From the NCBI GenBank assembly GCA_014802335.1, contig JAAVCL010000002.1, positions 1 to 64,000 of the forward strand: DNA of 64,000 bases, read 5' to 3'. This document shows positions 8,421 to 64,000 of this stretch, piece by piece. The notes under the pieces were generated by a model. The model saw only the letters and a list, made by a program, of their open reading frames with translations. It ran no database searches and was not told where the DNA came from. Origin of the DNA: Bacteroides sp. (GTDB lineage: Bacteria; Bacteroidota; Bacteroidia; Bacteroidales; Muribaculaceae). Made by a program: the position numbers and the translations under genes. Positions within the stretch are counted from its first letter, which is position 1, and each line of letters starts with the position of its first letter.

Positions 8421-8829
8421 AGTTATTTAGGTTTTAGGTGTTAGGCGTTAGGTTTTAGGCGTTGGGTTTTAGGCGTTAGGTAGTAGGGACGTGATTCTTC
8501 ACGTCCGGGCAGACCCCAATACCCTGCGTCCCGGCAGAGTTCATTACCTTGCGTCGGTCCGGACGTGAAGAATCACGTCCCTACACTCGTCCGGTAATGA
8601 ATCGTAACGACCGTCCGGTAATGCCACCGGTAATTCGACGATATTTACCCAGACGTGGCGCGCCACGTCCCTACACTTGTCCGGTAATGAATCGTAGCGA
8701 CCGTCCGGTAATGAATGGTGTCGGCAAATGTAGGGACATGGCGTGCCATGTCTGAACGTTACGACGGGTAATTCGGCGATGTTTGCCCGGACGTGAAGAA
8801 TCACGTCCCTACTACCTAACGCCTAACGC
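8421..8829. repeat. REP-like palindrome cluster bounded by 40-bp inverted repeats and heptamer arrays
   Basis: No gene; the stretch is entirely repeat DNA. A heptamer-like array (TTAGGCG/TTAGGTT units) occupies 8425-8482. Two identical 40-bp sequences in inverted orientation (8472-8511 and 8784-8823) bound a 352-bp element, each holding a hairpin GGACGTGA-TTCT-TCACGTCC. Two further palindromes lie inside: GACGTGGCGCGCCACGTC (8652-8669) and GACATGGCGTGCCATGTC (8735-8752). Spacers repeat GTCCGGTAATGAATCGTA twice. The array of CCTAACG units at 8813-8829 runs into the RAYT stop. Related palindromes occur at 22.99, 62.95 and 63.7-64 kb. The ORFs called here in several frames are shadows. Confidence 0.85.
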
Positions 8830-9387
8830 CTAAAACTTAAAGCCTAATTGCGGCAACATGCGTTTTATCATTAACCTGCGCGGATTATCCGTCACATACT
8901 TGTATAAAACATCCAATTGACCCGATTTATAGACAATGCTGTCTGAAATTCCTGGATTAAAACAACTGCTATCCTCGCTCAGAATTCCCTCATCCCGAAG
9001 CCTCCGGGTACATGCCGACATAGTCAATCCTACATATACAGTGACAGGTTTTGGCAGCTCATTGAGAACTCTCACCACAAAATGCAAATGATCGGGCATA
9101 ATAACCGATTTGATTATCCTGATTTTGTCGCGACGGAAACTTTCCAACTTATCCAACTCCTCCTTAACAATCACCCCGGCACGGTTCAACACCGTATGAG
9201 GTGCATCTGCACCACTCATAATATATGGATTCCCCTCCAACTTTGAAAAAATTGGAGCCATCTGATGCTTGGTGATGGTGAACATATAAATACAAGGCTT
9301 CCTATAATCATGAAAGAAAGCACGCCGTGTATGCACATGCTTCACAGGAGAAAGCGGCCCGGAATAACACTTCGCATTTTGAGCCAT
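8830..9387 (-). CDS. REP-associated tyrosine transposase (RAYT, Y1/IS200-like)
   Basis: A 185-residue Y1-type HUH transposase of the TnpA_REP/RAYT class. The metal-binding HUH motif is MPDHLHFVVRV (His100 and His102), and the C-terminal part has the family-like run KYVTDNPRRL. The catalytic tyrosine is not assigned with certainty; Y119 and the Tyr of YKYVTDNPRR are candidates. The ORF track starts at 9546, but its first 53 residues come from a polypurine/polypyrimidine tract (repeated FSLFPF), so ATG 9387 (MAQNAKCYSG) is preferred. RAYTs nick and join single-stranded REP hairpins, and such hairpins lie directly 3' of this gene. It stands alone, flanked on both sides by heptamer repeat arrays. 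Confidence 0.85.
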   Translation of the reverse strand: MAQNAKCYSGPLSPVKHVHTRRAFFHDYRKPCIYMFTITKHQMAPIFSKLEGNPYIMSGADAPHTVLNRAGVIVKEELDKLESFRRDKIRIIKSVIMPDHLHFVVRVLNELPKPVTVYVGLTMSACTRRLRDEGILSEDSSCFNPGISDSIVYKSGQLDVLYKYVTDNPRRLMIKRMLPQLGFKF

Positions 9388-9392
9388 AAGCA

Positions 9393-9513
9393 AAGAAAAA
9401 TAAGGAATGAAAGGAAGAAGGGAGAAAAGGAGGGAAGAGGGAAGAGGGAAGGGAGGAAAAGGAAAAAGGGAAAAGGGAAAAGAAAAGAAAAGAGAAGAGA
9501 AGAGAAGGAGGGC
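9393..9513. repeat. Long polypurine tract upstream of RAYT
   Basis: About 120 nt of almost uninterrupted purines on the plus strand, made of irregular units such as GGGAAGAGG, GGAAAAGG and AAGAAAAGAG; only a few pyrimidines occur at its left end. It precedes the preferred RAYT start on the minus strand. Such mirror-rich tracts can adopt triplex (H-DNA) structure; whether it affects RAYT expression is inference. Confidence 0.7.
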
Positions 9514-9579
9514 ACTAAGCACGGGGCGCAGCCCCATGCCACGCAACCACCCAAACCCGGACCCTCCTAAAGCCCTCGT

Positions 9580-9728
9580 TGAGTGGCAGAGGCCCGCGGC
9601 CTCTGCTCCCCTGCGCGGCCTCTACTTCCCCGGGGCCTCTACTTCCTCGCGGCCTCGCCTGCCCCGCGCTGCCGGAGCCCAGATCCTAAAGCCTAAAGCC
9701 TAAAACCTAAAGCCCAAAGCCTATAACT
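9580..9728. repeat. GC-rich palindrome, GGCCTCTACTTCC repeats and CCTAAAG heptamer array
   Basis: A perfect hairpin GCAGAGGC-CCGCG-GCCTCTGC (9586-9606) is followed by two copies of GGCCTCTACTTCC and a third partial copy (about 9617-9665). Then comes a CCTAAAG-type heptamer array at 9686-9725, which abuts the stop codon of the lipoprotein gene. This is a second repeat family, unrelated in sequence to the ACGTGGC palindromes. No gene is seen between 9514 and 9728. Confidence 0.7.
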
Positions 9729-22985: not shown

Positions 22986-23066
22986 CAGACGTGGCACACC
23001 TTGTCCCTACACTCGTCCGGTAATTTTTACTCAGACGTGGCACGCCATGTCCCTACACTTGTCGAC
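22986..23066. repeat. Two REP-like elements (CAGACGTGGC...GTCCCTACA)
   Basis: Two direct copies of CAGACGTGGCAC(A/G)CC(T/A)TGTCCCTACAC(T) occur at about 22986 and 23032, the first followed by TCGTCCGGTAAT as in the 8.5-kb cluster. They lie between the gldN terminator and susC. Confidence 0.8.
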
Positions 23067-62953: not shown

Positions 62954-62971
62954 GACATGGCACCCCATGTC
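62954..62971. repeat. Single REP-like palindrome
   Basis: GACATGG-CACC-CCATGTC, a variant of the ACGTGGC palindrome family with both arms changed together. It lies between two small genes and could act as a transcript-stabilising hairpin. Confidence 0.7.
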
Positions 62972-63027
62972 TCCACATTCAAGATTATCAAACAAGAATA
63001 TTAATCAAGATCACAAATAAAGCTGCT

Positions 63028-63676: not shown

Positions 63677-64000
63677 CAGACGTGGCACGCCCTACATTGG
63701 CATCGCTACTATTCATTCCCGGAGGGTCGGTGCGATTCGTTACCGGACCAGTGGCGGTCTCCATTACCGGACCAATGTAGGGACGTGGCGTGCCACGTCT
63801 GGGGAATCACCATACATAATACATCGTCGCAAGGTTCAGACGTGGCACGCCAAGTCCCTACATTGGCGTCGCTCCGATTCATTTCCGGAGGGTCGTTGCG
63901 ATTCGTTACCGGACGAGTGGCGGTCCCCATTACCGGACGAGTGTTGGGACGTGGCGTGCCACGTCTGGGGAATCACCATACATAATACATCGTCGCAAGC
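63677..64000. repeat. Tandem REP-like (BIME-type) array, about 160-bp unit
   Basis: Two direct copies of a roughly 160-bp unit begin at 63677 and 63837; the second runs to the window end. Each unit has CAGACGTGGCACGCC at its left, an inner TTCATTYCCGGAGGGTCG and paired TTACCGGAC boxes, and at its right the perfect palindrome GACGTGGCGTGCCACGTC (63782-63799 and 63948-63965). The first copy lacks six bases (AAGTCC) from its left element. The ORFs called here in both strands are shadows. Confidence 0.85.

Follow-up and report, generated by a model that had tools for sequence, protein, structure and literature searches.

The closest described counterparts of the elements considered here are the REP sequences of the GTAG super-family and the RAYT (TnpA_REP) transposases. 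The GTAG REPs, and the dimers that they form, were defined by Di Nocera 2013 (PMC3733652); the palindromes of the present locus share with this super-family and its REPIN/BIME arrangements the length of 20-40 bp, the GTAG at one foot, the high copy number, the extragenic location and the occurrence as inverted pairs. In the text of that survey the Bacteroidetes are named only for CGTC repeats, whereas the Muribaculaceae compared here are rich in GTAGGGAC repeats. Among the transposases, subclass 2.4 is marked by REPs within the gene and is abundant in Bacteroidetes (Quentin 2018, PMC6006769). Short RAYTs of relatives of our genome have the same NHxH, WQ and YIxNN motifs, the same flanking and in-frame GTAG REPs and the same phylum as this subclass (PMC6006769). 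A difference is that in the genome of the window, by which we mean the whole stretch of 64,000 nucleotides that was analyzed, we saw only a decayed gene.

Subclasses 2.1 and 2.3 (PMC6006769) resemble the family of the window RAYT: the proteins are RAYT-like and long, and their C-terminal domain is conserved. These subclasses are reported without REPs, 2.1 with HTH or DnaA-like tails (PMC6006769), whereas in the window family the tail is weakly DprA-like and one clade possesses GTGG-tagged REPs. The combination of a GTAG REP with a subclass 2.4 RAYT is of a kind already described in Bacteroidetes. The preliminary description of this DNA placed the known systems mainly in Proteobacteria; this view is outdated, as subclass 2.4 RAYTs and their REPs are reported to abound in Bacteroidetes (PMC6006769) and several relatives of our genome carry 95-215 copies of the GTAGGGAC REP. 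Our search of the literature on RAYTs in Bacteroides, or on palindromes in Muribaculaceae, found nothing relevant.

GTAG-tagged hairpins of the window and its genome

The palindrome cluster beside an HUH gene with the MPDHLHFVV motif, and the dispersed copies at 22988-23056, 62954 and 63679-63965, are present as first described, some of the copies intact and others worn (Table 1). A third hairpin type, GACGTGATTCTTCACGTC, had been overlooked.

Table 1 Elements of the window, with positions counted from its first nucleotide.
Element	Position	Strand	Remark
GTAG REP, ATTCTT-loop type, GTAGGGACGTGATTCTTCACGTC	8483..8505	+	
GTAG REP, ATTCTT-loop type	8562..8584	-	
GTAG REP, GACGTGGC type	8652..8674	-	
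GTAG REP, GACATGGC type	8730..8752	+	
GTAG REP, ATTCTT-loop type	8790..8812	-	
REP array, both ends made of TTAGG(C/T)-type simple repeats	8421..8850	.	Occupies the place of the RAYT 3' half and thioesterase spacer in the ortholog
RAYT-like Y1 HUH gene of 185 aa, truncated at the C-terminus and left with the catalytic domain	8830..9387	-	HUH DHLH, Y in YVTDNP
Probable relic of the window RAYT family's own REP, GTGGCAGAGGCC-CGC-GGCCTCTGC	9583..9606	+	
Degenerate GTAG REP, GACGTGGCACACCTTGTCCCTAC	22988..23010	-	
GTAG REP	23034..23056	-	
REP of GTAG type, tag altered	62954..62976	-	
Truncated GTAG REP	63679..63695	-	
GTAG REP	63777..63799	+	
Degenerate GTAG REP	63839..63861	-	
REP of GTAG type, GTTG tag	63943..63965	+	

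A genome-wide pattern search, which the preliminary description had suggested as a check, was run as GACRTGRN{2,6}YCAYGTC on the MAG to which the window belongs (2.09 Mb, 30 contigs, 83.6% complete). It returned 158 sites, compared with 0 for the reversed-pattern control; the positions of the copies were taken from the matches listed and from stretches of contigs. Although these sites were recruited without the tag, 133 of the 158 have an exact TAGG. When sites were anchored by TAGGGACRTG in the stretches of the genome examined, with no requirement for the second arm, GTAG was present in 104 of 106. The tag of every intact copy is one-sided, located at the 5' foot and unpaired. We write the hairpin as GTAGGGACGTGGC, and the type counted across relatives as the GTAGGGAC REP. 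There are three sub-types: GACGTGGC-RY-GCCACGTC, GACATGGC-RY-GCCATGTC and GACGTG-ATTCTT-CACGTC. No Rfam family covers the hairpins at gathering threshold. The window itself holds 27 perfect stems of at least 8 bp, against 8-13 in Markov shuffles.

The preliminary description had noted that the two arms change together, and this coupling is borne out. Among the 106 sites recruited by TAGGGACRTG (tag and 5' arm only), 92 have a matching 3' arm, and tabulating R/Y for stem position 4 gives 24/3/1/68 (Fisher p = 2.7e-18). Across REP variants of the genome itself and its relatives, changes on both sides are seen at 7 of 8 stem pairs and 97.6% of cells are paired, a level reached by 0 of 500 shuffles. 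Since this variant set was picked from hairpins, it describes how the stem varies and is no proof of the stem; the tag-anchored table is the unbiased test. As copies from the same genome cannot be treated as independent, the covariation counts back the hairpin and do not provide a rate. The notion of chance or low-complexity palindromes, in favor of which we found no point, is refuted by the 158 sites against 0 and by the shuffles, and deserves next to no credence.

Crude ORF models take up 80% of the sequence; 67 of 79 sites fall outside them and 12 inside. Close neighbor pairs (n = 57) include 31 in the +- orientation, spaced by 47-138 bp, and 3 in the -+ orientation; the GTAG REPs stand mostly in inverted pairs (REPIN/BIME). 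The palindromes are GTAG-tagged REPs: high in copy number, extragenic, tagged with GTAG at one foot, paired and covarying. It is highly improbable that they are, instead, RNA or DNA signals maintained by the host (terminators, mRNA 3' stabilizers or protein sites) and not mobilized by a RAYT. The genes neighboring the REPs (13 convergent, 31 tandem and 17 divergent arrangements) have no convergent excess over the baseline, which is unlike terminators. Extragenic position and conserved stems would suit host signals, and such roles have been proposed for REPs elsewhere (PMC3733652), but the unpaired GTAG is near-invariant and one-sided, the copies form inverted pairs and belong to several coexisting sub-types, and RAYT genes contain related copies in frame, as described below.

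The RAYT gene beside the array

The catalytic half of the window RAYT is unbroken: the reading frame of the gene (9387..8833, minus strand) is open, MPDHLHFVV and YVTDNP are both present, and the HUH and catalytic Y columns are invariant in the family alignment A2, with the Y of the window protein as the candidate catalytic tyrosine. The protein scores 28.6 bits against NF047646 (NCBIfam REP_Tyr_transpos), under the cut-off of 80. The preliminary description proposed a REPtron, for which a full-length RAYT would be expected; the window protein matches the family profile A2 (323 positions) at 3-171 only, and its last residues, QLGFKF, are encoded by TTAGGC-type simple repeat. Homologs of the family are common in the genus and are mostly 300-400 aa long, with ~130-150 extra C-terminal residues.

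The nearest homolog, at 53% identity, is found in another Muribaculaceae MAG (G006, JAIDDJ010000025.1). This ortholog is syntenic, between thioesterase and lipoprotein genes, and is full length and without the array. It runs ~200 codons further, which leaves ~110 bp to the thioesterase gene; the window has the REP array and simple repeats of the TTAGG type in the equivalent room, and the domain loss falls exactly at the start of the array. A search of the window for remains of the lost C-terminal domain was negative. The missing domain may be DprA-like: in searches with the C-terminal profile, DprA chains were among the top matches (E ~0.004-0.006). The signal is weak, and a pyridoxine-phosphate synthase scored equally. 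An AlphaFold model of the full-length G006 protein from a two-row alignment had a pLDDT of 41. The window gene is a C-terminally truncated member of a family that couples the HUH domain to a weakly DprA-like one, with the array standing at its former 3' half; we infer in what order these changes took place.

The array is bounded by TTAGGC / CCTAAAGCC simple repeats (8421-8482 and 8813-8850), which recur upstream of the RAYT gene (9683-9727) and may mark the rearrangement that truncated it. A long purine-rich strand (GGGAAGA/AAGGGAAAA) extends over 9388-9515, immediately upstream of the truncated gene. The same genome has two other genes of the family, both intact (C3 and C9) and neither with a REP nearby, and a search of viral contigs gave one weak fragment.

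It is conceivable that the truncated protein is itself the active partner of the GTAG REPs, the loss of the C-terminus having left a minimal enzyme that switched REP. The RAYT of E. coli is also short (~165 aa) and has no large C-terminal domain, a point that we counted for this possibility together with the intact HUH and Y motifs in an open frame and the five REPs at distances of 18-350 bp, which form the largest cluster in the list of 100 sites. However, the array (8483-8812) is confined to the 3' side, whereas cognate REPs would be expected on both flanks. With the evidence from relatives that follows, we judge this partnership unlikely.

RAYTs and GTAG REPs across relatives

A search of REP-rich relatives with RAYT models disclosed a short RAYT in G039 that contains the window REP type; this REP is in frame and falls between the HUH motif and the tyrosine, and a second one lies next to the gene. 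Exact GTAGGGACATGGCGTGCCATGTC REPs lie inside or beside the genes G039:C29 and G043:C56. With a threshold of E < 1e-20, 29 of the 121 genomes of the family have relatives of the G039 RAYT, and such relatives occur in other Bacteroidales too. Their motifs in alignment A1 are NH[IFV]H, WQ and YIxNN(P), the final P often being replaced in Muribaculaceae, and GTAG REPs both flank the genes and sit in frame inside them. We refer to these genes as subclass 2.4-type, an assignment that rests on motifs and REP insertion and not on the profiles of Quentin 2018.

In-frame translation of REPs inside RAYT genes is seen in L167 (G039:C29), L185 and L186 (G071, G035); in G035 and G071 the in-gene REP encodes a GTRF(F/I)AS stretch ahead of the HUH motif. 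Another short RAYT, L128 (G112:C104), is adjoined by GTAGCCGCGGTTTTTAACCGCGG hairpins, a further Muribaculaceae REP type. The IS200-like gene on C17, the only Pfam Y1_Tnp match in the window genome, was rejected as a partner and lies among other palindromes. The Y1 transposase L063 (G000:C17:46487-46831), which has the subclass 1.2 motif YIRNQEEHH, is bordered on both sides by repeated CCCCGCTACGCGGGG palindromes, whereas subclass 1.2 is reported generally without terminal hairpins.

Comparison of loci separates the two RAYT families. Subclass 2.4-type loci (n = 30) hold 72 GTAG hairpins against 0.8 expected, while window-family loci (n = 29) hold 3, none of them GTAGGGAC, and 9 GTGG hairpins. 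Among eight further window-family loci a single GTAGGGAC REP is present, ~0.7 kb upstream at G098:C18, and the other seven have none; it is absent as well at 20 more, taken from REP-rich genomes. Overall, 1 of 57 other window-family loci has a GTAGGGAC REP, while REPs of the same sequence occur in and around another RAYT clade; both observations speak against the truncated protein as partner. In the tree the two families split with 100/100 support, and the window gene clusters with L020-L023.

The preliminary description had held that equal abundance of the palindromes in relatives lacking a RAYT would argue against the pairing. The genomes of the closest homologs of the window RAYT (G006, G060, G089 and G095) have 5, 1, 0 and 0 GTAGGGAC REPs genome-wide, G079, G098 and G039 carry REPs without a close ortholog of the window RAYT, and it is another RAYT clade at which the REPs stand. 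The median number of GTAGGGAC REPs is 11 where a subclass 2.4 RAYT is present in the genome, compared with 1 where it is not (p = 2e-5); the difference is weaker for the window family (medians 5 and 1, p = 0.018). As these tests are uncorrected for ancestry and genome quality, and as several REP-rich relatives (G053, G112, G088 and G090) have no strong subclass 2.4 match, adjacency is the stronger evidence.

The window genome has a subclass 2.4 gene (G000:C29) that is frameshifted and decayed, with GTAGGGACGCGATTCTTCGCGTCC inside. An intact one was not found in the 83.6%-complete MAG, so the mobilizer is deduced from relatives and from this relic; an intact gene may sit in the unassembled ~16% of the genome, or may have been lost. 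Most likely, the window RAYT and the GTAG REPs are neighbors rather than partners. We consider it probable that two unrelated things meet at this locus, namely the GTAG REPs of a subclass 2.4-type TnpA_REP and the truncated gene of another RAYT family. The dispersed, covarying REP-like hairpins of the proposed REPtron are supported; the window RAYT as their partner is not, being truncated, with a GTGG-tagged sister clade, a one-sided array and the near-absence of the REP from the loci of its family.

The GTAG REPs, present in ~130-160 copies, would be non-autonomous: a short TnpA_REP of subclass 2.4 type would recognize the GTAG foot and the folded single strand and spread the hairpins. We infer their mobilization and cleavage by a RAYT from the TnpA_REP proteins of E. 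coli, S. maltophilia and Marinomonas, which serve as models for binding and cleavage (PMC8266576): the enzyme would bind the folded strand and the GTAG guide, cut at a nearby CT or CA, and move the element. A T directly 3' of the last stem C is present in 85 of 106 REPs, which places CT at the foot; by the same analogy, this CT and the ACT that precedes the GTGG REPs would fit such cleavage.

GTGG hairpins of the sister clade

The homologs in G060, G095 and G089 (L021-L023) are accompanied by hairpins of the form ACT-GTGG-nnn-AAGCC-CGC-GGCTT, and GTGG-tagged hairpins also adjoin L024, L025 and L027. The three are closely related to each other and count as one lineage. In G060 the hairpins lie on both sides of the gene and number 14 copies genome-wide, with stems that are varied yet matched and with ACT ahead of nearly all of them. 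Located 196 bp upstream of the RAYT gene, the window hairpin at 9583-9606 has the opposite orientation, as do the hairpins beside L021-L023; it shares the tag and the stem core with them, is without ACT, and is the sole copy in its genome. It is best read as a probable relic of the original REPtron of the window gene. The GTGG REPs of the sister clade and this relic 5' of the window gene also count against the truncated protein as partner of the GTAG REPs.

At L021, L022 and L023 and at L092-L115 there is a RAYT clade whose C-terminus bears an additional, weakly DprA-like domain and which has ACT-GTGG hairpins of its own. We advance, tentatively and with some doubt, that the window gene could be a broken member of a new type of REPtron, in which RAYTs of a Muribaculaceae clade, bearing a DprA/Rossmann-like domain at the C-terminus, would mobilize their own ACT-GTGG hairpins. 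This clade, with its extra domain and its own GTGG REPs, is the more interesting by-product of the analysis. If the proposal is true, it would be an exception to the reported absence of REPs in RAYT subclasses with large C-terminal domains, and it would point to a RAYT equipped with a module of its own for handling single-stranded DNA.

Pairing by adjacency alone would have named what is probably the wrong transposase for a repeat of ~150 copies; REP type and RAYT clade need to be matched across relatives. One gut family presents two matched sets, GTAG with the short subclass 2.4 RAYT and GTGG with the RAYT that has the extra C-terminal domain, in which tag recognition would be directly comparable.
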